Origin: Russula earlei
Taxonomy: Eukaryota > Basidiomycota > Agaricomycetes > Russulales > Russulaceae
Direction: 5' to 3'
Length of the DNA stretch: 64,000 bases
Assembly: GCA_025769875.1 (NCBI GenBank)
Contig: JAGFNK010000029.1
Span: 124,001-188,000, forward strand
Shown: positions 14,444 to 60,561 of the stretch, piece after piece
Layout: every line of letters begins with the position of its first letter
Position numbering within the stretch: position 1 is the stretch's first letter
The notes under the pieces: generated by a model
Databases searched by the model: none
The model's input: only the letters and a program-made list of their open reading frames with translations
What the model was told of the DNA's origin: nothing
Position numbers and translations under genes: made by a program

Positions 14444-14503
14444 CTTGATGAGTTGACTGGTCAGCACAGTTTGAGGAGAGACTGTCCAGATGTCAAGAGT
14501 CAC
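14444..14503 (-). other. Candidate intron spanning LTR B end and primer-binding site (copy ii)
   Basis: On the minus strand a 60-nt segment runs from GTGACT (inside the last 13 nt of the LTR) to ATCAAG, with the branch-like GCTGAC about 20 nt before the end. It contains TGGACAGTCT. Removal joins A to TGTCTAAC, giving ATG TCT AAC. The donor is weaker here (GTGACT) than in the other two copies. Confidence 0.5.
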
Positions 14504-15657: not shown

Positions 15658-17556
15658 TCAGCCTTCTTCTGCTGCCTCATAGGCAGCCAACGCGGAGGCC
15701 ACTATTGCCTCTGACTCCTCAGCAGTGGCTGAAGGAGACGTGATCTGTGGGAGTCTGTCAGAGTCCCTAGGTAACCTCCGGATTGGAGGTGTGTCGGAGC
15801 GAAGAGGAGTTGTAGTGAAAGGTTCTTGGAAGGTCCTGGACCCTTCTCCTTTCACTACCTGCAAAATGCGCGGGTTAGCAGTGTCCTCCCTCTCCTGGTC
15901 GGACTTCCTCTTCCTGCTCGAGTGTGCCTGTTCCCATCCTCGGTGGAAAGGGCATGATCTGATTGGTGTATAGGAACGATGATAGGGAGGTACTAGGCAA
16001 TGTGAGGCAGCGTCTGCTGCCAGTTGGTTGTGGCAATATTGGTGGGGTAGGGGACAGTACTTGTTAAAATGTCCTACCTCGCCACAATACTTGCATCGGT
16101 TCCTTTTTCTCCTCCCTTCTATCATGTTCAGTTGCTGAGGCTCCGGAATGAAGTCAGCCATTGGAGTAGACGCTTCCCCACTGCTGCTATAGGAATGGTA
16201 ATAGATAGAGCTCTGGGGGGAAGGGTTTGGTGACGCTTCCGATCCTGCTCCTCCTCGAAGGCGCATACCGGACATGGTTTGGAGGATGCCTATCTCCTCT
16301 TCCGAATACCCTTGCACCGTCGTAGGTGTGGGGCTGGCTGGTACTGGTTCTGGGTCGGGGGTAGCATACCCCTGAGCGATATCTTCCAAAGGCAGCTGAG
16401 GGATGAAGACGGGTAGAGGGGGAGTGGGCTGCCCAGCCCGATAGTTGGTGAGGAGTTCTTCAGCCCAGACACCTGGAGGGGTTTCTCCCTGGCTACAGCC
16501 TGCTTCAATGAACTCCCAACATCGTGAGCGTACTTTGGCTGCCGCCATTCTCTCCTTGGCTTCAGCCCTGTCCCTCTCTACTCCTCGCTTCTCAGCTAGG
16601 TACTTGCTGAGCTTGTAGCGCAGCTGCTTTTCCTCTTCTTCAAGCACCTTATAGTTAGCTTCCAGCGTCTCTTGTAAGGTGTAGAGATGGTCCAAGCGGT
16701 AGAGTTCTGCCTGCAGCCCATAGTCGCCTAGCAGGTAGAGGGTCTGTCTCCAGCGCCCTTCGAACTGCCTCTCTGTATCGAAGCAGTCTAAGTCATGTTC
16801 GTCTTGGCCATAGTTATAGAGGTTATAGCAAGGGGTGGCCTGGAGGATCTCGCCATAGTCTGCATGGCCTTCTCCATTCTTCCCCCTCACTCTCGGCTCT
16901 CCAAAGGCAACGTCATAGGCCACATACCTGGCCAGCTTGTTGCCCCAAGTCATGCCATCAGGGATGTCAATCCCTGTGTGGTGTCTGTCAGCGTCCCATT
17001 GTACCCAAGGCTCTCCAGGGTGGGCATACTGAGCAAGAGTGCTGGTGGGGGACGTCACATCCCAGTCCCCAGGCTGAACGTCGACTTGGTCAGCAGGGGG
17101 TCCAAATTCGAGAGGACGCATATCTGCTTCTCCTTCTCCAGTGTTATGTTCATCCATTCCTTGGAAGAAGGCAAGAAGGGAAGCATCGGGAGTGGTGATT
17201 TCAAGTGGCCCCTCTACACCAGAGAGGTCGGATTGGGGAACGATTTCATTAGTGGGAGTTTGGGACATTTGTGAGCGACGATATGGGGATGAGGAAGTAG
17301 AGGGCATCTTTCGCTGGACTTTTATAACCTGTATGGCTGTGGGGTTCTTTCTGTGATATTCCTCTATTAGTCTAGACGCTTTGATGTTCTCTACTGGCTC
17401 CCAAGAGTCATGGGCTTCAGAGTACCCTTCCCACCGGACTTGATACTCCAGCTGTTTCCTCCTTCCAGTTCGTCTTGAACCTAAAATCGTTGCTACTTCA
17501 TATTCCTCTTCTCCTTCCACCAATTCTGCTTCTGGATTGGTGTAGTTAGGCCCCAT
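15658..17556 (-). CDS. Element E chromodomain with long C-terminal extension and zinc knuckle
   Basis: A 632-codon open frame. The first 65 or so residues are the end of Pol: the GPNYTNPEAELVEGEEEYEVATI lead-in and a chromodomain (LEYQVRWEGYSEAHDSWEP). Normally Pol stops soon after. Here about 560 more residues follow: a disordered Ser/Pro/Thr part, a Trp/Tyr-rich segment (GDYGLQAELYRLDHLYTLQ), a charged helical stretch around residues 290-340 likely to form a coiled coil, a Pro-rich part, and near residue 490 a CCHC knuckle (CKYCGEVGHFNKYC) followed by more Cys/His. It overlaps the integrase frame by 11 nt; a fourth G in a GGGG run explains the shift. The role of the extension is unknown; nucleic-acid binding is an inference from the knuckle. 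Confidence 0.75.
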   Translation of the reverse strand: MGPNYTNPEAELVEGEEEYEVATILGSRRTGRRKQLEYQVRWEGYSEAHDSWEPVENIKASRLIEEYHRKNPTAIQVIKVQRKMPSTSSSPYRRSQMSQTPTNEIVPQSDLSGVEGPLEITTPDASLLAFFQGMDEHNTGEGEADMRPLEFGPPADQVDVQPGDWDVTSPTSTLAQYAHPGEPWVQWDADRHHTGIDIPDGMTWGNKLARYVAYDVAFGEPRVRGKNGEGHADYGEILQATPCYNLYNYGQDEHDLDCFDTERQFEGRWRQTLYLLGDYGLQAELYRLDHLYTLQETLEANYKVLEEEEKQLRYKLSKYLAEKRGVERDRAEAKERMAAAKVRSRCWEFIEAGCSQGETPPGVWAEELLTNYRAGQPTPPLPVFIPQLPLEDIAQGYATPDPEPVPASPTPTTVQGYSEEEIGILQTMSGMRLRGGAGSEASPNPSPQSSIYYHSYSSSGEASTPMADFIPEPQQLNMIEGRRKRNRCKYCGEVGHFNKYCPLPHQYCHNQLAADAASHCLVPPYHRSYTPIRSCPFHRGWEQAHSSRKRKSDQEREDTANPRILQVVKGEGSRTFQEPFTTTPLRSDTPPIRRLPRDSDRLPQITSPSATAEESEAIVASALAAYEAAEEG

Positions 17557-18491
17557 GCTCCTCGGTTTCCTTGTAAGGTGTCAATAAGGAGGCATGAAAC
17601 GCGTTATGGATCCTCCAGCAGCTAGGGAGATCCAATCTGTATGTCACCGGACTAATCACCTCCGTGATTTCAAAGGGCCCATATCGTTTTGGGCGTAGTT
17701 TCACTGTAGGATGTGTCGTTTTTAGGTTGGTGCTGTCGAGCCATACCCTTTCTCCTTTCTGATAAGGTTGGAAACTACTTCTTCGCTTCCACATTAGGGA
17801 AGTGATCTTCATCGCTTCTTGTGCCTGTGATCTCGCTTCCTGGATCCTGACTTTCCAATTGTCTATTCTTGGTATCTTGCTTTCCCGATTTGGCTGGTGT
17901 GCTTTGGGCGTAAAACCCATCCATAAGAAGAAAGGGGATTGTCTGGTTGTCTCTGAAACGTTAGAATTCATCGTGTATTGCACCAGAGGTAGCCACTCCA
18001 CCCAATCATCTTGTTGGTGGTTGCAAAAGATTCTTAGTGATGTTTCCATCGTCTGATTCGTTCTTTCTGATTGTCCATCTGTCTGAGGATGGTAGGCAGT
18101 GCTGATATTCTGTTTGATATGCAGCTGGTCGCAAAGTTCCCTAATGAACTTGGAACTTATTAGTTTATCTCGATCGGATATGATCTTGCTTGGTACTCCC
18201 ACAAATGGGAATATTCTGTCCTTGTAGAGCTGTGCTAGCTCTTCTGCGTCCATTTCTTCTTTGCAAGGAAGCAAGATGATGCCTTTAGTACAATTGTGGT
18301 CAGTGACAGTCAATATACTGTCATATCCCTTCGACTTTGGCAATTTGACCACAAAGTCCATGCTGACAGTCGAGAAGGGAGTAGCCCCTTCTTCTGGTGG
18401 AATGGGATACAAGGGAGGTCGATTTGGATGAGTGTTTGACTTGTTACTTTGGCAAATTGCGCATCCTTCCACATATCGATCGACAAAGCGT
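17546..18491 (-). pseudogene. Element E integrase (5'-truncated)
   Basis: Minus-strand frame of about 315 codons: the zinc-domain end (CAICQSNKSNTH), catalytic core with the first Asp in MDFVVKLPKSKGYDS, the second in KIISDRDKLISSKF, and the Glu after STAYHPQTDGQSERTNQ, then GERVWLDSTNLK, KRYGPFEITEVI and IHNAFHASLL. It is uninterrupted except for the 1-nt shift into the chromodomain frame at 17556. The RT half is missing: element A's LTR starts at 18492 and the rest does not reappear beyond 28178. Confidence 0.88.
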
Positions 18492-18757
18492 CTGTTACGA
18501 ACCAAGGCCAAGTCCTGGCCAAGGATTGTCCTATTTTACTCAAGAAAGACCTCCCTCACTTTGCATTGCCGACTCCCTTCCATTTTCTGGGCTATCCCTC
18601 CTGTGGTACAAGATATTGCTATTGCAAAAGCACTCTAACACGACCAGGCACCGGTTTCCTAATCGGGTAATCATCGCGTGGCAGCCGCATGGCCACCCAA
18701 GCCACCATGGACCCGAAACAGCGGCACAAACTCTTAGAAACTGTTGCATAAATCATC

Positions 18758-18858
18758 TGACGTCATCAAGGCTCCAATGACATCATGGCTGACTGAGCGA
18801 CTCCACAGTGACCTCATAGGCTCACTAAGCGCCCCACAGTGACATCATAATGATGTCA
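18758..18858 (+). promoter_or_regulatory. Array of five CRE/ATF-like octamers in U3 of LTR A
   Basis: TGACGTCA (18758), TGACATCA (18778), TGACCTCA (18809), TGACATCA (18840) and TGATGTCA (18851) lie within 101 bp, about 140-240 bp upstream of the TATA box. TGACGTCA is the palindromic site bound by CREB/ATF-type bZIP factors; the others differ by one base, or two for the last. The array recurs in other family A LTRs. Confidence 0.5.
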
Positions 18859-18994
18859 TCGCTCCACAATGATCAGTAATGCGCTCAGTAAGCCTGAAAC
18901 TTGGCATAAGCAAGTTTATGCCTCTGTAGTCCTATTGGATGGTACCAAAGAGTCTAGAATAGTCCCAGTGCTTTGTAATCGACCCTGTACACTG

Positions 18995-19036
18995 TATATA
19001 AGCCCCAATGAAGCATGGCAGTCGTCAGACTGTCCA
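18995..19036 (+). promoter_or_regulatory. Core promoter and RNA 5' end of element A
   Basis: TATATAA at 18995-19001 is followed 32 nt later by AGACTGTCCA. The complement of that decamer is the primer-binding site at 19324-19333. An imperfect inverted repeat (CAGTC/GACTG) spans the predicted start. Confidence 0.6.
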
Positions 19037-19306
19037 TTTGTGATACTCTCCACTTCCTGGGTACTCCCCTGCGACTGCTCAGTCTAAAGCCTTCCCTCGT
19101 CTTCAAGGTACTCTTCAACGACCGCCTTGTTTAAAGTCCCTCGCTGCACTGGCCTCTACTCTTCGCCTTTGCCTCCTGCAACACGTACCAGTCCCCATCT
19201 GGTATCTTCTAGTCGTTTGGCTCGTCCTCCTGTTCAACGCCGCTTACGCCGCGTACCATCTGTTCCGACCCCTGCCCACCTGCTCCTGAGTCCTTAGTGA
19301 TCAGCA

Positions 19307-19368
19307 GTACGTGTCTTGACATCTGGACAGTCTCTCATCATTCTTGTATTGACCAGCCAACGCTCAAG
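19307..19368 (+). other. Candidate intron creating the ORF A start codon (copy iii)
   Basis: The 62-nt segment runs from GTACGT, inside the last 15 nt of the LTR, to CTCAAG, with branch-like TTGAC about 15 nt before its end. It contains the primer-binding site. Joining 19306 (A) to 19369 (TG) makes ATG TCT ACT CCC in frame with ORF A; no genomic ATG precedes ORF A in that frame. The same architecture is present at 14503-14444 and 59582-59640. Confidence 0.65.
19324..19333 (+). promoter_or_regulatory. Putative self-priming primer-binding site of element A
   Basis: TGGACAGTCT starts 2 nt after the LTR and is the exact complement of the predicted RNA 5' end AGACTGTCCA at 19027-19036. It lies wholly within the candidate intron 19307-19368. 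Confidence 0.65.
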
Positions 19369-20292
19369 TGTCTACTCCCAACTCCCCCACTCTTGTCAAT
19401 ACCTCCCTGCATCTCCCTTCTCCTCTCCAGCCCACTCCACGCACCGCTCTTCGCATCCTCACTGAAGACGTCGACCCGGTCGACACATCCTCACCCCTCA
19501 GCCTCTTGTACTCCCCAACGGCTCCCCCATCGTCTCCTACCACTGTCCAGCCTATCCCAGACAACTTTGTCCCTGTCGGCACTCCCCCTCCAGTGCAGAA
19601 CGAGCAACAGCAAGCGGACCGTCCTCCCTTACCTGAAGGCTTCCTCGACCGTCCCCCCTGCACAGTATTTCGCTTCCATCCTGCACCAGTACTTCGTCCT
19701 CCCTACCACCAATCGTCGCCAGGAGCAGTGGCGTCCCCTCCACGACTTGAATCATCAAGACTACCTTGGACGCATCCCTACCTCAGACCAGTTAGCTCGT
19801 CGCGCATTCACAGACACCTTCACTACTGCCTTTCGTGCACGCATCGTCCACACTTTTGCGGTAGAACCCTCCAACACTGCCCTTGCCACCCAGTACAATC
19901 TCACCCCCTTCGGCATCTGCTCCAACGTCGGGATATACGCCCCGGACGCTGACTTTCCCCTCGGACGCATCGCTTACATTTTTAACACCTCGTTATTTAG
20001 GAAACTACTTACCTTGCCTGCTATTTACCGCCCTGCTTACGAGGGCTCGTTTTGCTTATCTATCGTACACGACTTCTTGGACGGACGTCTCGCTTTCGCA
20101 TACGGCTACTTACACTTCGAGGAGAACAGTAACCGCGTGTCCCTACGTCACTATTCGACTTATACAGTCAACACCATCCGCTTTAACCCCCAGCTACTTC
20201 GCTTTTGCTTTACGCCTCGTATTCCCCTTAACCCTCTCGAAATAATTGAGAGGTACCAGCTCGAAACCATAGATCTTGCGCACGGTTCTTAA
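19369..20292 (+). CDS. Accessory ORF A of element A (copy iii)
   Basis: After the proposed A|TG splice the protein begins MSTPNSPTL. The first 100 or so residues are Pro/Ser/Thr-rich and probably disordered, ending in PEGFLDRPPCTVFRFHP. One extra base near 19690 then shifts the frame; the second part (HQYFVLPTTN..., EQWRPLHDLN, ARIVHTFAVEPSN, YAPDADFPLGRIAYIFN, PAIYRPAYEGSFCLSIVHDF, LDGRLAFAYGYLHFEEN) is well conserved with copies at 731-1115 and 59641-60490. It stops with TAA at 20290-20292 inside a hairpin. It has no signal peptide, clear membrane segment or catalytic motif known to me. Conservation across diverged copies suggests selection on the protein. The family is unknown. Confidence 0.65.
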   Translation, partial: CLLPTPPLLSIPPCISLLLSSPLHAPLFASSLKTSTRSTHPHPSASCTPQRLPHRLLPLSSLSQTTLSLSALPLQCRTSNSKRTVLPYLKASSTVPPAQYFASILHQYFVLPTTNRRQEQWRPLHDLNHQDYLGRIPTSDQLARRAFTDTFTTAFRARIVHTFAVEPSNTALATQYNLTPFGICSNVGIYAPDADFPLGRIAYIFNTSLFRKLLTLPAIYRPAYEGSFCLSIVHDFLDGRLAFAYGYLHFEENSNRVSLRHYSTYTVNTIRFNPQLLRFCFTPRIPLNPLEIIERYQLETIDLAHGS

Positions 20293-20304
20293 AAAGTAAG
20301 AACC
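20284..20304 (+). promoter_or_regulatory. Conserved hairpin at ORF A stop / ORF B donor (copy iii)
   Basis: GGTTCTTA, loop AAAAG, TAAGAACC: 8-bp perfect stem. The ORF A stop codon is 20290-20292 and the GTAAGA donor begins at 20296. Compared with the copies at 705-725 and 60496-60516, the outermost pair changes from A-T to G-C, a compensatory change. Confidence 0.6.
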
Positions 20305-20360
20305 ACCCTTGTAACGCTTCAATAAAGATCGAATAAAGATCCTTTTTGTTTTAACTAAAG
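20296..20360 (+). other. Candidate intron creating the ORF B start codon (copy iii)
   Basis: The 65-nt GTAAGA...CTAAAG segment ends just before TG CCA CGA GAA. Joining 20295 (A) to 20361 makes ATG CCA CGA, in frame with ORF B, which otherwise would begin with GTG. The matching segment in copy iv is 60508-60561. Confidence 0.55.
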
Positions 20361-21493
20361 TGCCACGAGAATACGCCTTAGAAGAAGACGAAGAAGAAGA
20401 CGCTATCACCAGACACGTCTTAAGCCTAAATCATTATCGAACTTGGACCTCCGTCGCATTCCCTGTCACCACTTTAACCAACTTACACGACGTACCAGGA
20501 GTTGAACCACCTCACGAAGATTTCCCCCATCTTATTGTTAAAGAGTTCCTTGAAGTCTTGCCTTTTGGACAACTCTTAAGCCACGACGAACACGCACTAT
20601 ATCTTGAAACCCTTAGTCGACTTCTACCTCCAGCACGACAACAACTACTATATTGGCACCTTGCTCAAGCGAAGAACATCCAAGGACAGCCAGTTGACTA
20701 CCAATCCTTACGCACTAGTGAATTAAACCTTTGGACCAGAGTCATTCAACCACGCCACCACATCATTGTCCACTCTTTAAGGACAGGGTATCGCTTGTTT
20801 TATCTGGCTTGGACATACATCAGCTACTACCGTCTCACCGTCCAGTTCTACCACCTACGCCTCAACAGAATACAAAGGGAAAATCAATCTTACGTCCAAC
20901 TTGCTGTTGTACCAGGAATACACAACACCTTTGACTGGGAAACTAACTCTTGGCTATACGACGCAGACTACAATCAACCTTGGGCAATTACCAGCCCAGA
21001 CGCCTCATATACTGGTCCCCCTGCGTACTATTCTGTCCCAGCAATCCTAGAAGCCTCAAGTCTCGCCCCTCGACCCCTCACACCGATTCAGACCACTGTC
21101 CCAACTAGCCAAGAACGTTGGTCTGCCAGCACAGAAGATACTGAGTCAAATCCGTGGACAGCAAGGTGTAACTGCAAAACAGAGTATTGCACGTGCAACT
21201 TTCGACCAGACACACCTCCTACTCCTGACGGAATTACCTTGTGGACGCCAGGCGATTACCATCCTCCCCATTCGATAAATCTGGCTCCCTCGACACAGGA
21301 GACGCGCAGTCATCCCAACGACCCCCTGAGAGAGAAACAATTCCCAACGCAAGAGGATTTCTTGTTGAAAGACCATTACCTCCTACCCCTCCTGACGCCT
21401 ACGTACCCTTGTTTACCAATCGTATTCCTACCCCTGTTATACCTATCCCAACCCTTTGCATCACCCCTTGTTGAATCCCCTGATAGTGCCTGA
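20361..21493 (+). CDS. Accessory ORF B of element A (copy iii)
   Basis: About 377 codons, beginning MPREYALEEDEEEDAI after the proposed splice. Conserved with copies at 200-665 and 60562-61554: an acidic N-terminus, then FLEVLPFGQLLSHDEHALYLETLSRLLPPARQQLLYWHLAQ, a middle part (ELNLWTRVIQPRHHIIV, YYRLTVQFYHLRLNRIQ, NTFDWETNSWLYD) and near residue 270 a CxCx4CxC cluster followed by FRPDTPPTP. The Cys cluster keeps its spacing in copy iv and may bind a metal. The last 35 or so codons overlap a second open frame (-1) that matches copy iv better, so the true end may be in that frame. No known family is recognised. Confidence 0.68.
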
Positions 21494-21868
21494 TCTTAGG
21501 AATACTGATTTACACTGTTATCCTACCAGAACAATCCTTCTTAGCATTAAACCTACCTACGCGTTCAAGGAGAGAGTTAATTGAATTCAAGAATTATTGT
21601 ACCCAAGCTTGGCATCAACGACTGACACACTTTATAGTTTACAAGCACCCCACCAAGGAAATAAGTGACTTTGCCATCTCTCCAGCAGAATTCGAAGGAT
21701 ATCTGTGGAAAACCCGAGTAGTTCTAACACAAAGCAGCATTACTGAAGAATACTCCCGAATCCAATTAAGAAAACATCAAGGAAGACCTGATACCATTCG
21801 ACTAAAGCCAGCCTACACCATTGCATATCCTTGGAACAACGGCCATTGGACTATAACAGTCGTCTAGA
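21241..21868 (+). pseudogene. ORF C region of element A (copy iii)
   Basis: In the -1 frame relative to ORF B, RPLPPTPP...IPTPVIPIP, then after three clustered stops (21472-21489) LNLPTRSRRELIEFKNYCTQAWH and a tail ending GHWTITVV with TAG just before the gag ATG. The LPxRxRRELxxFKNxC segment is shared with 61540-61801 in the same relative frame. The stops suggest this copy is dead here. Function unknown. Confidence 0.45.
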
Positions 21869-21871
21869 TCT

Positions 21872-23382
21872 ATGAGCACTAGGAGGGACATCACTGACGA
21901 AGAAGAAAATCTAATCCCACTCCTATTTGAAAACCTCAGTTACGACACCCAAGATCACTGTTACCGAGGAAAATTTGCAGGCACACCTATTATCAACCAC
22001 GGAAATCTTTCTGACACTTGGTTATACGAAGACGATAACGACGAAGTTACCACCGAACAACTTAAAGCGGCAGCCCCAGGAGCAGAAAACGTTCAAGACT
22101 TCAACCCCTATAACTACACAGGCCTCTTCCTAGACAGACCAGTCAAGTGGAGCCGTTCTAGAAGACATTGGGTTTACTATAACAATCGAGAAGTCGATTT
22201 CTCAGCCAGAACACCTCAAGAAGTTACCGCTATCCTAGGAACTGCTCAGAGCACTCGAAGCACCACTCCAGGACCTTCTACTCGGCGTAATACCCAACAA
22301 CCTACTCCTCATACAACTAGCAACGTACCACAAGCAGTCCCTCGAACGCTCACTCCAACTAGAATCCAACTACAAGGTTCAGCCCCACCTATTGTTACAG
22401 CTACAACAACTCAGAATCCCACCATGTCAAGCAATCCACGCCTTGTTGGAACAGCACCAGAACCCTTTGACGGAAAGGCTGATAACGCAGAAGCCTTTTG
22501 GGCAGCTTTGGCCAATTATTATTACATCAATGGCGACTCCTTTACAGATGAAAGCAAGAAAGTTGCCGCTGCACTGACCCACTTTAAAGTAGGAACACCC
22601 GCCTGGAGCGTGGGCTAGAGAACAAACCACCAAGGCTATGGCTCGTACCGTAGCAGACTATGGGTCATGGGACGACTTCAAGAAAGCCTTTGCCGATCAT
22701 TTTATTCCTGCAGAAGCAGAGTTGGCCTCCGCTAATATCATGCACACCCTATTATCAAGGGAAACTACCATTTAATGAATGGTACCAGAAATGGTCGCAC
22801 CACGCATCACGAGCTACCACCGATGAAAGAACAAAGATGTACGCATTTAGGAAGAACATCAACCCGGCCTTACATCAGAAAATACTGGGAATCACACCAA
22901 CACCAACTACGCTTGCAGCCCTTGTCAAAGCAGCAAGAGAATTCGACAACCTTTTCCACCTATACAACTCCACTGCTTTTCGAGGAGGACGCTCTGTGCG
23001 TGCCCGAGGATTGAACACTCAAGGATCAGATAATCCATTGGAAATTAACTTGTACCAAGGAGAGCCCAATGAACGACCCTGGGAATCCAGAAGTGAAAGG
23101 AAACCCCTCACAGATGCAGAGAAAGAATTTCGACGCAAGAACAATCTCTGTTATTATTGTGGAAAGAAGAATCATATGGCAAATCAATGTAGAGCAAAGA
23201 AAGCAGCTCAAGGACGCCAACGACAAGGTTCTCGCCCCCAAACAGTCAGAGCTACAACCATCCAAGATGAAAACATCGAACCTGCGCAAGAAGAACCCGT
23301 TCCTGTTGCTTCACTAACGACTTGGAGAGAGACACTTGCAGACTCGATCCTCCGCCCAAGATCTGCTCCTATGGATTTTTAA
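21872..23382 (+). pseudogene. Element A Gag (frameshifted)
   Basis: Starts at a genomic ATG (MSTRRDITDEEENLIPLL). About 190 residues of leader precede the capsid (LVGTAPEPFDGKADNAEAFW; VAAALTHFKVGTPA), then ARTVADYGSWDDFKKAFADHF in a second frame after one extra T near 22604, then LPFNEWYQKWSHHASRAT and the CCHC knuckle (CYYCGKKNHMANQC, near 23150-23190) after another 1-nt shift near 22770. The frame ends at 23382, before the protease. Motif order and spacing are typical of Ty3/gypsy chromovirus Gag. The single-base shifts could be real or assembly errors; their inserted-base character is the same as in Pol. Confidence 0.85.
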
Positions 23383-23412: not shown

Positions 23413-24016
23413 TGGTCCAAATCAGTACGATACAAAGAGAAATCAATTACCCCAAAGTTTTTACCAAGAATATTCGCTCCCCTTCCATTGCCTTGAAAGT
23501 TACCTTAGGTAGGGAAGACAAGCGGCAAAGAAATCGGTGCAAGAGCCCTGCTCGACAGTGGAGCAGAAGGAATGATAATCCACGAACGATTTGCACAAAG
23601 ACACCACCTGCACCTTCGAACTATGATCAAACCCTTGCCAGCACAAAATGTAGACGGAACACAAAATGCCAATGGACTAATACGCTTTAGCACCATCCAA
23701 AGACTTCGCATTCCAAGCGCACACAGGCGCCACTCATGATGAACAAGCAGAATTCCTGGTCACTAACATTGGAGATCACGACATTATCTTAGGAACCGAT
23801 TGGCTACGACACCACAACCCAGATATTGATTGGGCAAATGATACAATCACACTGAGGAACTGCCCCCGAACTTGCCTTACCACACACCCAAGCATAACCA
23901 TTGCATCTGCATCTGGAACGCGGAATTACCAAATACAAGCGCTTACTTTCCCTGAAGAAGAAGAACCCGAGTTTACGGACATTGCTGCACTAATCTTCCC
24001 AGATACTGAAGGACCA
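23413..24016 (+). pseudogene. Element A protease region (frameshifted)
   Basis: VQISTIQREINYPKVFTKN in one frame, then after a 1-nt shift near 23515 ARALLDSGAEGMIIHERFAQ, the DSG motif of a retropepsin, followed by KPLPAQNVDGTQNANG and IGDHDIILGTDWLRHHNPDIDW. The protease would process Gag-Pol. A close relative is the fragment at 54151-54684. Confidence 0.8.
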
Positions 24017-27000
24017 TTGAACCCATGTGTTGACGAACAAATCCACGATGCGTTTAGCCCAATAACAATCAACATAAGAGCCAAATCAACCACAGCTACC
24101 AAGTTAGCCAATGCGGAAACACCCCCTAAGACATTAGACGAACTTATCCCCGCCCAATTCTTGAAATGGCGAAAGGTTTTCGATGAACAAGCTTCTCAAC
24201 GCCTTCCTGCTCACCAACCATGGGACCATGCAATCAATCTAAAACCAGGGATCGCCCGACGTGATTCTGGCATTTATCGACTTACTCCCAAGGAACTACA
24301 AGCCCTAAAAGAATACTTAGACGAACATTTGAAGAGAGGCACAATCCGACCATCAAAAGCAGCTATTGCCAGCCCATTCTTCTTTGTAGAAAAGAAAGGA
24401 GGAAATCTACGACCAGTGCAAGACTACAGAGCCCTGAATACAGCAACTGTCAAAGACGCGTATCCACTACCCTTGATTCCTGAATTAATTGACAAACTCC
24501 AAGGAGCCCAATACTTTACCAAGTTTGACGTACGATGGGGATACAACAATATTCGCCTCAGAGAGGGCGATGAACACCTCGCAGCATTCAAGACACCATT
24601 AGGACTCTTCGAACCATTGATAATGACATTTGGTCTCTGCAACGCCCCAGCCACTTTCCAACGCTTTATGAACACCATCCTAGCAAAATACATCGCCACT
24701 GAACGAGTGGTTGTTTATCTAGATGATATACTAATCATGGCGCAAACCTTGAACGAACTAGACGACTGGACACATAAGGTCCTAAAAACACTCCAAGACC
24801 ACGACTTATACTTGAAACCAGAGAAATGTGCTTTCCGACAAACCTCTATTAGTTACCTAGGCATCAATATCTCCCAAGGACGAATATCCATGGACCAAGA
24901 CAAGTTAATAGGCATTACAAAGTGGCCTACTCCGACCAATGTTACGGAAGTACAAGCATTTCTAGGATTCTGCAACTTCTATCGACGATTTATCCACCAA
25001 TACTCTCGAATAGCACGGCCCTTGTTTAACTTAACAAAGAAAGAAAACCCCTTCAAATGGGAAGACGATGAAGAACAAGCATTTCAGAAGCTAATCCAAG
25101 CATTCACAACGGCCCCAATCCTCATGTTACCTAACCACACGAAACCCTTTCGACTCATCTGCGATGCAAGTGACTTTGCAGTCGGTGCAATCTTGGAACA
25201 ACCCGATGAATTTAACAGATATCACCCAGTAGCCTATTTCTCGAAATCCTTGGACCCCGCACAACGAAATTACATGATCTATGATAAAGAACTCCTTGCT
25301 ATTGTCTTGTCCCTCTGGCACTTCCGACACTACCTTGAAGGCGCTACACACCCCATTGATCTATGGACAGACCACAATAACTTGACATACTTCATGACAA
25401 AACAGAAACTCACGAGACGACAAGCCCGATGGGCACTCCTCCTCAGCAATTTCGACTTCACCATCACCCACCACCCAGGAACTATGAACAAAGCAGACGG
25501 TCTGTCCAGGCGGCCAGACTTTAAAGAGGGGATACAAAACGAAAATGATGGAAAGGTGCTCCTAGATGACAAATTTTTTAAAATTAGAGCAACACGCACC
25601 TCTGCTACAGAACCAATCGGCGACCAGGAACTTCGACAACAACTACGATCTAGCAAAGACTATGACCCAGAAGTATCTAACGCGTTAGCAATCATTATAA
25701 AGAATGGACCAAGGCGACTATCCAAAGGCTTACAGGACTGGAACCTTGAAGATGGACTAATACTATTCAAAGGAAAAGTCTATATCCCAAACAACGACAC
25801 CCTAAGAAAGAAAATTCTAAAACTACACCACGACTCCCTTGCCACTGGGCATCCTGGCCAATGGAAAACTTATGAACTAATCAGCCGAAACTATTGGTGG
25901 CCAGGAATGCTAACTTATGTCAAAAGTTATGTAGATGGTTGCGCAATTTGCCAAAGTACAAAGAACCGTCCAAAGACAGAAACACCCCTTGTACCGATTA
26001 CACCAGCTGGAGAAGTATGGAAAAGCATTACTATGGACTTTATCACGGACCTACCGATTTCACAAGGCTTCGACAGCCTCCTAGTCGTGGTAGATCGATT
26101 CAGTAAAGCAATAATCATTACCCCTTGCCACAAGACAATCACAGCAGACGAAACAGCGACACTAATCATGAACAATGTCTGGAGAAGAATAGGGCTCCCA
26201 ACACAAATAATATCGGACAGAGGCCCTCAGTTCGCAGCAAAAGTCACTCAAGAACTATGGAAGAAGTTAAATGTCAAAGTATCATTAAGCACAGCATATC
26301 ACCCACAGACAGACTGGAGAAACAGAACGAGTTAACCAAGAACTAGAACAATACCTACGAATATTTTGCAACCATCAAGCAGACAATTGGGCAGAACTAG
26401 TTCCCTTTATGGAGTTCGCACATAATGCCAGACAACACAGTGCTACGAACAAACCCCCGTTTGAAGTCTGGTATGGCTTTAACCCAACATTTGCTCCGCC
26501 CCTTGCCTTTACATCAAAGTTCCCTTCAATCCAAGAAAGACTATCAAGACTAAACCAACTCAGAGAAGAAGTAGCTGCCTCCCTGAACCGAGCAACAGAA
26601 ATCATGAAGCAATCAGGACCTCAATCCTCCACATTTCGTTTTAAAGAAGGGGATCAAGTATGGCTGGAAGCCACGAATCTACGAACCACTCACCCAAAAG
26701 CAAAACTAGCCCCTCGACGCTATGGGCCATTCAAAGTCACCACTGCCTATCCAGTAAACGTTCGCCTCGAGCTACCAAAGTCTTGGAAGATACACCCAGT
26801 TTTTCACCACTCCCTGATTAAACCTTACAAAGAAACCATTGCCCATGGTCCTAACTTTTCAAACCCGCCACCAATATTAGTCGAAGGTGAAGAACAATAT
26901 GAAGTAGAACAGATCCTAAACTCTCGGCTCTCCCCAAACCGCAAAGGAATCCAATACCTAGTTAAATGGAAAGGGTATACGGTTGCAGAAAATACTTGGG

Positions 27001-27348: not shown

Positions 27349-28178
27349 TGTTACGAACCAAGGCCAAGTCCTGGCCGAAGATTGTCCTATTTTACTCAAG
27401 AAGAACCTCTCTCACTTTGCATTGCCGACTCCCTTCCATTTTCTGGGCTATCCCTCCTGCGGTACAAGATATTGCTATTGCAAAGGCACTATAACACGAC
27501 CAGGCACCAGTTTCCTAATCGGGTAATCATCGCGTGGCAGCCACATGGCCACTCAGCCACCATGGACCCGAAACAGCGGCACAAACTCTTAGAAACTGTT
27601 GCATAAATCATCTGACGTCATCAAGGCTCCAATGACATCATGGCTGACTGAGCGACTCCACAGTGACCTCATAGGCTCACTAAGCGCTCCACAGTGACAT
27701 CATAATGATGTCATCGCTCCACAATGATCAGTAATGCGCTCAGTAAGCCTGAAAGTTGACACAAGCAAGTTTATGCCTCTGTAGTCCTATTGGATGGTAC
27801 CAAAGAGTCTAGAATAGTCCCAGTGCTTTGTAATCGACCCTGTATACTGTATATAAGCCCCAATGAAGCATGGCAGTCGTCAGACTGTCCATTTGTGATA
27901 CTCTCATCTTCCTGGGTACTCCCCCGCGACCGCTCAGTTTAAAGACTCCCTCTCGCTCCCAAGGTACTCTTCTACGACCGCCTTGTTTAAAGCCTCCTCG
28001 CTGCACTGGCTTCTAACCTTCGCCTCTGCCTCCAGTTACACGTACCAGTCCCCATCTGGTACATCTTAGTCATTTGGCTCGTCCTCTTGTTCAACGCCGC
28101 CTACGCCGCGTACCATCTGTTCCGACCCTTGCCCACCTGCTCCTGAGTCCACACGGATCAGCAGTACGTGTCTTGACA
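27349..28178 (+). repeat. 3' LTR A of element A
   Basis: An 830-bp co-linear match to 18492-19321 with scattered substitutions (for example TGGCCGAAGATT against TGGCCAAGGATT). It ends GTCTTGACA, followed by cccac. Confidence 0.92.
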
Positions 28179-58783: not shown

Positions 58784-59594
58784 TGTCGTGAACCATTCTC
58801 CGGAGAGGGCCCTTGAAGGACCCTTCTAGCAACAAAGGACAGTATTAGGGCCTTCCTAAGGACCCTTTGGAACGACTCTAGGAGCTCTACAATAGGCACT
58901 AACCTAGTATCAAAGGCCCTACAATGCGTTATTAGACCAACTCTAATAACTATAGAATGAACTATAAAGGCAATACTAAGGACCTTAATAGAAGTATTAG
59001 GGTCGACTCTAAGGACCCTAATAGAACTATATAAGGGCCTTATAAGATAGCACTATTCCCTAACCAAACTACAAGTCCTCAAATGACCAGCCCTAAACTA
59101 ACTAAACAGAAAATGAATCAGGTGCTTGCATGTGCACTAAAGCAGTGAACACGTGGACAATGAAAGCTCTTACTCATCAAGAGAAGCCTTCTTACTCAGC
59201 AGCTTACTGAGCATGACTGAGCATGCTCAGTAAGTGCACTCCGACTTCTTACTCATCACTCTATTGTGCTTGATAACAAGGTTATGACTTGTTCCCTATT
59301 TAGCAGTTCTCTTGTAGTATATAAGCGCTCAATAAAGTAGCGGACAGTCCTCAGACTGTCCATTTGTTTACGGCACTCTCCATCCCTGGGATACTCCTTT
59401 AAGGACCGTCCCCTTGTGACTATCCTGGCCTCTCCTCTGCATGACTGCTCAACTCTCACAGTAACAATACCTCTCTGGTATCTGTTACTACTCTGGACTC
59501 TACTTCTTGCCCACGCCATCTTGGACATTTATTGACTTGTCTTTGAGCTTATCCCTCGCTCTTGAACTGGATAGTTCAACAGTGAGTCTTGACA
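58784..59594 (+). repeat. LTR B, 5' LTR of a family B element (811 bp)
   Basis: TGTCGTGAACC...GTCTTGACA. TATATAA at 59318; GGACAGTC, loop CTCA, GACTGTCC (59342-59361) is a perfect stem at the predicted RNA start; AGACTGTCCA is at 59353-59362. U3 differs strongly from LTR A, but the R start, primer site and splice signals are shared. A near-perfect inverted repeat lies at 59203-59234. Confidence 0.82.
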
Positions 59595-59640
59595 TCTGGA
59601 CAGTCTCTCTCAACCCGTGCTGACCAGTCAACTCATCAAG
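59582..59640 (+). other. Candidate intron creating the ORF A start codon (copy iv)
   Basis: 59-nt segment GTGAGT...ATCAAG with branch-like CTGAC at 59620-59624. It starts 13 nt inside the LTR and contains the primer-binding site TGGACAGTCT (59597-59606). Joining 59581 (A) to 59641 (TG) makes ATG TCT GAC AAT. The donor is close to the consensus. Confidence 0.65.
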
Positions 59641-60490
59641 TGTCTGACAATATCCCGACCACTGGTTCTCCGGAGCCTCGCACTCCCGACATCCAACTAC
59701 TTTCCCTTCCCCAATCTCTCCCACTGGTTCCAACTCTATCTCCGCCACCTGGACTTCCCCCCATTGCAGTTCATCCCCTTCCAGGGACTTACATAGAGGA
59801 CAACCCTCTCAACGATCAAGAAAACATTCCCCTGGTCCCACCAGGTTTCTTTAATCCTCCGGACTGTGCGGAGTACGCCTTCCACCCCCACCAGTTTCAA
59901 GTTTATTCGCATCCGACACAACGAAGTAGAACACTGGCGCCCTTTGGAAGAAGCAGCGCGACGCGACACCCTTTCCACCATCCCTACTATAGGTCACTTG
60001 CTCCAGCGACCATCCACCGACATCTTTGTCTCCCCATTCCGGGCCAAAATCACCCACACTTTTGCAGTACTGCCTACCAACCGCGACCTCATCAAACAGT
60101 TTAACTTGGCAAGCTTTGAGGTGTGTAGTTCAGTAGGGATACACCCTCCGGACATTGACTTCCCCTTCAGTCGCCTCCACTACTTGTTTAACTCATCCAT
60201 ATATCATCATCTGGAGACACTGCCTACCATTTATCGATTCGCGTACCAAGGGTCTTTTATCCTTACTTCCATCCACAACTTCCTTGACGGCAGAGTCTAT
60301 TATTCATATGCTTACCTAAAGATAGCCGAGGGAGAATATATATCATTCGAGAACAGCTTCTCGAAACTCCTTAGACAACCTCCGTGTCTACCCTGCCTTG
60401 TCTCGCTTTTGTTTCCTTCCCCGTCTCCCTCTAAACCCTCTGCTTACTTTGGACCCTCTTCGCCCAAGTGTTGTCAACATTGCTACCTAG
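59641..60490 (+). pseudogene. Accessory ORF A of family B element (copy iv)
   Basis: After the proposed splice: MSDNIPTTGSPEPRTPD..., a Pro-rich N-terminus and PPGFFNPPDCAEYAFHPHQFQVY. One extra T near 59913 shifts the frame; then RHNEVEHWRPLEEAARRD, AKITHTFAVLPTN, GIHPPDIDFPFSRLHYLFN and LDGRVYYSYAYLKIAEGEY. A second 1-nt change near 60365 shifts out of frame; the ancestral stop is TAG at 60488-60490. The C-terminal half is nearly the same protein as copy i (731-1115). Broken, family unknown. Confidence 0.65.
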
Positions 60491-60495
60491 TGCAT

Positions 60496-60516
60496 AGTTC
60501 TTGAAAAGTAAGAACT
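60496..60516 (+). promoter_or_regulatory. Conserved ORF A/ORF B junction hairpin (copy iv)
   Basis: AGTTCTTG, loop AAAAG, TAAGAACT. The innermost pair is G-U in RNA where the other copies have A-U; the outermost is A-U where copy iii has G-C. The GTAAGA donor begins at 60508, in the loop's last base. Confidence 0.6.
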
Positions 60517-60561
60517 ACCCTTGTAACACTAGACTAAAAGAAATCAAAGCTTCGTCTGTAG
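60508..60561 (+). other. Candidate intron creating the ORF B start codon (copy iv)
   Basis: 54-nt segment GTAAGA...TCTGTAG. Joining 60507 (A) to 60562 makes ATG CCT CCG AGA, the start seen (as a genomic ATG) in copy i. Confidence 0.55.

Follow-up and report, generated by a model that had tools for sequence, protein, structure and literature searches.

Two questions about retroelements are open: how translation and reverse transcription share a single RNA, and how one promoter gives rise to several proteins. Self-priming of reverse transcription is known from the fission yeast element Tf1 and has been proposed for Tj1, according to excerpts of the published account (PMC4600332), while in RTBV, as excerpted, ribosomes scan 900 nt through AUG-free ORFs (PMC5902531). 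The locus described here is a Ty3/gypsy element that, judged from its sequence, probably makes the start codons of its accessory genes by splicing and would use its unspliced RNA both as genome and as Gag-Pol mRNA.

The element, designated element A, is located in the window, that is, the whole 64,000-nucleotide stretch of Russula earlei DNA that was analysed, and was assigned to Ty3/gypsy (Metaviridae) on the basis of its LTRs and the RT–RNase H–integrase order in pol. Its framework is as follows:

18493..19321, plus strand: 5' LTR of element A (TGTTACG...TTGACA), found by blastn against the 3' LTR
27349..28178, plus strand: 3' LTR of element A, found by blastn
23681..26335, plus strand: pol of element A (RT, RNase H, integrase)
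19027..19036, plus strand: predicted RNA 5' end AGACTGTCCA, the putative self-primer, reverse complement of the primer-binding site (PBS), about 30 nt below TATATAA
19324..19333, plus strand: PBS TGGACAGTCT, complement of the predicted RNA start

The two LTRs are 93.9% identical by blastn over these coordinates. The neighbouring minus-strand piece (15658–18535) encodes an integrase, a Tf2-1-like SH3 domain and a chromodomain, with an open frame that runs up to, and a little into, the 5' LTR of element A. In the regions scanned, which extend to 26335 in element A, this minus-strand piece was the sole source of a chromodomain (15658–17580).

The genome searched comprises 66.6 Mb in 1374 contigs. 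The PBS word TGACATCTGGACAGTC occurs in it 515 times with up to two mismatches, compared with 20 occurrences of a reversed control, and because of this excess the genome seems to contain hundreds of element copies. The 60 loci that we read are the best-scoring BLAST matches, a non-random sample, and comprise 30 loci of family A (L001–L030, 97–100% alike over the query) and 30 of family B (L031–L060, 87–100%). Family A by itself is too young for conservation to be informative. The two families are 43% identical in the ORF1 protein (121 of 280 positions in two pairs and 110 of 280 in a third), and the synonymous sites between them are saturated, with a dS of 2.84 in one of three pairs and values beyond the computable range in the remaining pairs. 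No third family stood out among the 99 places, of 494 candidates, that were listed in the search with P0012 (30–35% identity), and a scan of viral contigs gave no match.

In 56 of the 60 loci, the 10 nt of the PBS pair exactly with the predicted RNA start; two of the remaining four have no recognisable start, and a mismatch on the one side and on the other was found in one locus each. A point against the model is that neither partner differs between the families, which leaves no covariation. Most LTR elements use a tRNA primer, and a PBS placed 2 nt after the LTR and beginning with TGG would suit one. However, no canonical T-arm followed by GAGACTGT was found anywhere in the genome by pattern search, and, given the exact complement at the predicted RNA start, priming by a tRNA is very unlikely, although an internal tRNA fragment or a variant T-arm would escape this pattern. 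ARAGORN was run on 14 of 30 tRNA loci. Tf1-type self-priming by the RNA's own 5' end, whose position is predicted, is highly likely. To our knowledge, neither Tf1 nor Tj1 splices its PBS or carries AUG-free accessory genes before gag.

An earlier note on this DNA had proposed that three copies in the window contain a GT...AG segment spanning the PBS, the removal of which would create a start codon. The coordinates of the three segments proved exact:

19307..19368, plus strand: predicted intron 1 of element A (GTACGT...CAAG), 62 nt, holding the LTR end and the PBS
59582..59640, plus strand: predicted intron 1 in a copy of family B, 59 nt (RNA start 59353, PBS 59597)
14503..14444, minus strand: predicted intron 1 of a decayed, B-like copy, 60 nt
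19349..19353, plus strand: branch-point-like TTGAC (CTGAC in family B), with TGACCAG common to both families
19369..19952, plus strand: ORF1 in the spliced frame, broken in element A, 193 codons

The donor lies inside the 3' end of the LTR, by 15 nt in element A and by 13 nt in the 59582 copy; the PBS, beginning at 19324, falls within the segment, the branch-like motif is located about 20 nt before the acceptor, and A|TG spans the junction in all three window copies, each as had been described. The frame that follows (ORF A of the earlier note, here ORF1) has no genomic ATG, and none is present in the copies with an intact ORF1 either. The description of the leader as free of ATG holds for element A, while the copies at 59582 and 14503 each have one leader ATG; it is absent in L049, L054, L057 and L059.

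The flanking A|GT and AAG|TG, whose invariance the earlier note had suggested as a check, are kept in 60 of the 60 copies read (the locator demanded AAG before TGTC, and no locus failed it), and the PBS region is kept in all 60 copies of families A and B as well. When three A leaders are compared with three B leaders, the longest stretches in common are found at the RNA start (AGACTGTCCA), at the LTR end together with the PBS, and at TGACCAG and TCAAG|TGTC. Intron 1 has GT–AG ends, a branch motif and a host-like length, the host yardstick being one actin gene whose introns, bounded by eye, have GTGAGT or GTCAGT donors; one of these introns is 55 nt long and contains CTAAC. A 3' splice site in AAG is uncommon, which counts against the model. 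Since the intron 1 donor is part of the LTR, it recurs in the 3' LTR (28164), from where splicing into host sequence downstream could take place.

ORF1 is broken in all three window copies (193, 153 and 94 codons). Among the loci read, it is open from the spliced ATG for 306 codons in 12 of the 30 A copies and for 281 codons in 6 of the 30 B copies, with pN/pS ratios of 0.098 (A, 12 intact copies, 66 pairs) and 0.171 (B, 6 copies, 15 pairs). These data confirm that the PBS-spanning GT–AG segment is real and support the view that its removal would give an AUG to a protein-coding ORF on which purifying selection acts. Neither ORF1 nor ORF2, described below, has a significant Pfam match (the best E value was 0.02, for ORF2), and their PDB sequence matches had E values of 0.74 or worse. 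Among named proteins, those most similar to ORF1 come from Russula earlei (83 and 64%), as would suit a Russula-like basidiomycete host. One of these models, P0001, reads ...ANAQVSTPNS..., apparently through the end of intron 1, and the N-termini of both gene models seem to be invented.

A second segment of this kind is found directly after the ORF1 stop:

20296..20360, plus strand: intron 2 (GTAAGA...CTAAAG), the removal of which would make the ORF2 AUG; five copies show its exact loss
60508..60561, plus strand: intron 2 of the family B copy with the 59582 intron 1 (L031)
20361..21493, plus strand: ORF2 (ATGCC after splicing), 376 codons open in the window copy, no internal AUG

Both families read A|GTAAGAAC...AG|TGCC at this position, and removal of intron 2 would join A to TG, giving ATG CC in frame with ORF2. 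The donor motif is present in 24 of the 30 A loci and 27 of the 30 B loci. Three of the six A loci without it end earlier, L010 and L028 are without the intron exactly, and L025 is rearranged; among the 24 A loci with the donor, L007 ends inside intron 2 and L009 is rearranged. In family B, one of the 27, L050, has lost the A|TG of intron 2 and reads AG|CG instead. ORF2 has a pN/pS ratio of 0.25 among 7 A copies and 8 B copies, all of them selected because their open frame is long.

The exact intron 2 junction has 11 matches in the genome, compared with 1 for the reversed control. Five are element copies (L010, L028, L098, L099 and L101) from which intron 2 is missing precisely, GT and AG included, so that the ATG of ORF2 is present in the DNA itself. 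L010 and L028 belong to family A, show 9 differences in 900 between them, are each closer to the intron-bearing L002, and keep intron 1 and the PBS; L099 and L101 are A-like and L098 is B-like (L098 and L099 by blastn, L101 matched to family A by eye). The five copies are best read as retroposed spliced RNAs, and the exact loss that they share shows that intron 2 is really spliced. The intron-bearing donor has 392 genome sites with up to two mismatches, compared with 0 for the reversed control. The genomic ORF2 AUG of the intron-2-less copies should block gag, which fits their rarity (5 versus 392). The other six junction matches were not counted: four belong to an unrelated repeat containing GTTCTTGAAAATGCCTCTGCATGCC (G000:C1, C110, C298 and C1309), and the remaining two are C20 and C523.

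Searches with family-specific junction patterns of 28 and 27 nt, allowing three mismatches, found no genomic copy without intron 1. Three matches to an 18-nt intron 1 junction pattern were rejected, as C51 and C66 are unrelated and C253 shares its matched letters with C51. If intron 1 is spliced, such copies would not be expected, because the spliced RNA has no PBS; their absence would follow just as well if intron 1 were never removed, and is thus consistent with the model but non-discriminating.

Hairpins at the donors were compared with shuffled sequences. The z values were −2.5 and −2.95 for intron 2 (20270–20330 and 60482–60542) and −2.05 for intron 1 of family B (59548–59603), while the hairpin at the intron 1 donor of family A was not more stable than the shuffles (+0.73). 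Splicing might be gated by RNA structure at the donors.

Random sequence often contains a GT...AG pair with a CTRAC-like motif, and all three window copies are decayed, as would suit a chance match in decayed repeats. This explanation is scarcely credible, being ruled out by the presence of the segment in 60 of 60 copies from two families so distant in ORF1; a full-length frame opens exactly at the junction in 18 copies, and intron 2 provides a second instance with exact losses.

The start of ORF1 can also be considered from its distant relatives. An ORF1 profile search yielded 44 proteins from the 8000 best candidates scored, of which 42 were retained after the two R. earlei models had been left out. 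Among these relatives, mutually non-independent and some of them fragments, the N-terminus is Val-Ser in 24, Met-Ser in 8 and otherwise in 10, the distinction between V and M possibly depending on the caller. Internal Met is absent in 32 of the 42, with 11 in 14,620 residues against about 180 expected from the gag and pol rate of element A (18 in 1461). Relatives of ORF2 begin with Val-Ser in five of seven cases and with Met-Ser in two, and contain 4 internal Met in 2,176 residues against about 27 expected at the same rate. From protein sequences alone, Val-Ser can be read as GTG TC, the AG|TG boundary as seen by a bacterial gene caller. Because GTG may be rendered as M by a gene caller, the difference between V and M says nothing about splicing, and the M-starting 'ena' homologues were dropped as candidates for spliced transcripts.

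Another conserved frame lies in the leader:

19191..19289, plus strand: conserved part of ORF0, a small hydrophobic AUG-less frame in the leader, recognised by pN/pS

It reads V/I-P-I/L-WYLL..W..LL, with about 32 residues to the stop, and is conserved between the families. Its pN/pS is 0.44 (30 A copies) and 0.34 (29 B copies) in its own frame and 0.86–1.69 in the other frames; several copies have early stops or shifts.

These observations bear on the main rival explanation, in which intron 1 is not an intron and ORF1 starts at an in-frame GUG (GTG TCT) by near-cognate initiation in the AUG-free leader. Every copy read has this GTG in frame, as any AG|TG boundary would leave it, homologues seem to have been assigned a GTG start, intron-1-less genomic copies were not found, and the AUU-started ORF I of RTBV offers a precedent; because the AUG-less ORF0 is conserved upstream, some non-AUG initiation may be needed anyway. 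However, GUG initiation needs neither the A|GT donor kept in all 60 copies nor the TGACCAG and CAAG|TG shared between families, and leaves aside that intron 2 has the same layout and is spliced, as its exact-loss copies show. Moreover, the spliced ORF1 AUG has A at −3 in both families, while the GUG has C at −3. We consider initiation at this GUG unlikely and splicing of intron 1 probable.

The AUG codons made in this way would lie in a stretch of RNA that has no others:

19027..21871, plus strand: AUG desert, 2845 nt free of ATG in all three frames
21872..22618, plus strand: first genomic AUG and its ORF (gag position), broken and with no significant Pfam match in the window copy
21265..21865 (approximate ends), plus strand: third conserved frame between ORF2 and gag, broken in the window copy

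The desert of element A contains 0 ATG compared with 23.1 expected from dinucleotides (Poisson P about 1e-10), and ATG has the lowest observed-to-expected ratio among its trinucleotides with at least 3 expected occurrences, while the next 2846 nt contain 39 ATG against 39.9 expected. No ATG-free stretch on either strand of the window is longer than the one that contains it (2857 nt); the next, of 867 nt, lies in leader and ORF1 sequence of the B copy. The ATG that precedes the desert is located 12 nt upstream of the predicted RNA start. A family B copy (L059/L092) has no ATG over 288 + 2771 nt, from the RNA start to 2771 nt past intron 1, and a family A copy (L002/L091) has none from the RNA start to 2496 nt past intron 1; the distance from the predicted RNA start to the first AUG is 2.8–3.1 kb. 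The upstream ORFs are AUG-free in all frames in the window copy and in these two copies, while older copies have ATGs. Between the RNA start and the ORF1 end, counted in the 54 loci that were long enough, at least one ATG was found in 3 of 10 A and 3 of 6 B loci with ORF1 intact, and in 3 of 15 A and 20 of 23 B loci with ORF1 broken.

In L092, the ORF at the first ATG has matches to Retrotrans_gag (PF03732, 1.9e-8) and zf-CCHC (9e-6), the domain being seen in this copy only, and past the gag AUG there are 19 ATG against 17.2 expected. The idea that ORF A is gag was not borne out, since the gag of this one B copy is located at the first genomic AUG, 2.5–2.8 kb further. The desert appears to be the whole stretch from the predicted RNA start to gag, with the gag domain itself known from that single copy. 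Because this stretch includes ORF1 and ORF2, both are taken to be accessory genes upstream of gag. The third frame is AUG-less, lies in the −1 frame relative to ORF2, and is open in L103 and L092; no in-frame AG|TG was seen before it by eye, and no frameshift site was found. For neither ORF0 nor the third frame was a splice-made AUG found, which counts against the model.

Scanning from the RNA start to gag over 2.8–3.1 kb would be extreme, and ORF1, ORF2 and the third frame are open in the same RNA. One could suppose that splicing is real but that ribosomes get to gag by reinitiation or internal entry, or on another RNA, the desert serving only to keep the start of ORF1 or ORF2 unique. Nevertheless, a unique ORF1 start needs no AUG-free 3' half, while the desert passes both ORF1 and ORF2 and stops at the gag AUG, with normal ATG density after it. 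Such alternative routes to gag are possible but not favoured, and scanning to gag has a good chance of being correct.

According to the proposed mechanism, one promoter would give one RNA, predicted to be AUG-free from its 5' end to gag and carrying at least two accessory genes between the PBS and gag. Excision of intron 1 would join A to TG, starting ORF1 and discarding the PBS. If intron 2 were excised and intron 1 kept, the first AUG would be the start of ORF2. If neither were excised, ribosomes would meet no AUG until gag, and Gag-Pol would be made; the same unspliced RNA, primed on the PBS by its own folded-back 5' end, would be the template for reverse transcription. The splice choice would thus set both the gene expressed and whether the RNA can be copied, and this choice may be regulated. 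The earlier note had suggested that one splicing decision partitions mRNA from template. The loss of the PBS from the spliced RNA stands; the partition would instead be between accessory-protein mRNA and genome/Gag-Pol RNA, because gag starts at the first genomic AUG. Because of that position in L092, the notion that the unspliced RNA is not an mRNA was rejected. The second splice-made AUG, the reach of the desert past the leader and the self-priming complement go beyond what the earlier note had described. We lean towards the full form of the proposal, in which the DNA contains no start codon for any accessory gene, about 3 kb of the genomic RNA lack AUG, each splice writes one AUG and in this way selects the protein made, and an RNA that serves to translate ORF1 cannot be reverse transcribed because the ORF1 splice deletes the primer site.

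If this is true, a single switch would answer both of the questions raised at the outset, since splicing would create a start codon and remove the primer site. Gene finders would miss genes started in this manner, and callers seem to start many of the metagenome homologues at GTG. Further splice-started genes could be sought by looking for AUG deserts that have AG|TG boundaries.

Several known systems share parts of this arrangement; the comparisons below draw on excerpts of the cited sources. Tf1 and Tj1 likewise have a PBS complementary to the 5' end of their own RNA, but the excerpts describe neither PBS splicing nor AUG-free accessory genes before gag (PMC4600332). RTBV and the badnaviruses also have long ORFs without internal AUG, an AUG-less first ORF and scanning to a later one, with splicing serving another ORF (PMC5902531); there, however, the distance is 900 nt with an AUU start and a leaky AUG, while here it is 2.8–3.1 kb with AUGs made by splicing. 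The barley element BARE1 combines splicing with separate RNA pools for translation and replication, but its intron is at the end of gag, its gag AUG is genomic, and its pools arise from two TATA boxes (PMC3735527). Accessory ORFs upstream of gag are found in the MDG1 group and in walleye dermal sarcoma virus, and nothing in the excerpts suggests that these lack start codons; full-length MDG1 transcripts are unspliced, and no separate orf c transcript is recorded there (PMC11952523, PMC3185748). In the antisense HBZ SP1 RNA of HTLV-1, splicing brings a new in-frame AUG before the ORF, but that AUG lies in exon 1, whereas here it would exist only after joining (PMC1459196). The SpIREs of human L1 are genomic copies of spliced RNA, mostly dead ends, comparable to the intron-2-less copies, although L1 splicing is not described in the excerpted text as a source of start codons (PMC5860796). 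Splice-made start codons or introns of this type in retroelements were absent from the literature matches listed, which covered few subscription journals. As far as the excerpts go, a start codon composed by exon joining occurs in none of RTBV, BARE, the MDG1 group and walleye dermal sarcoma virus, or HTLV-1 HBZ, and the expression strategy itself may be new.
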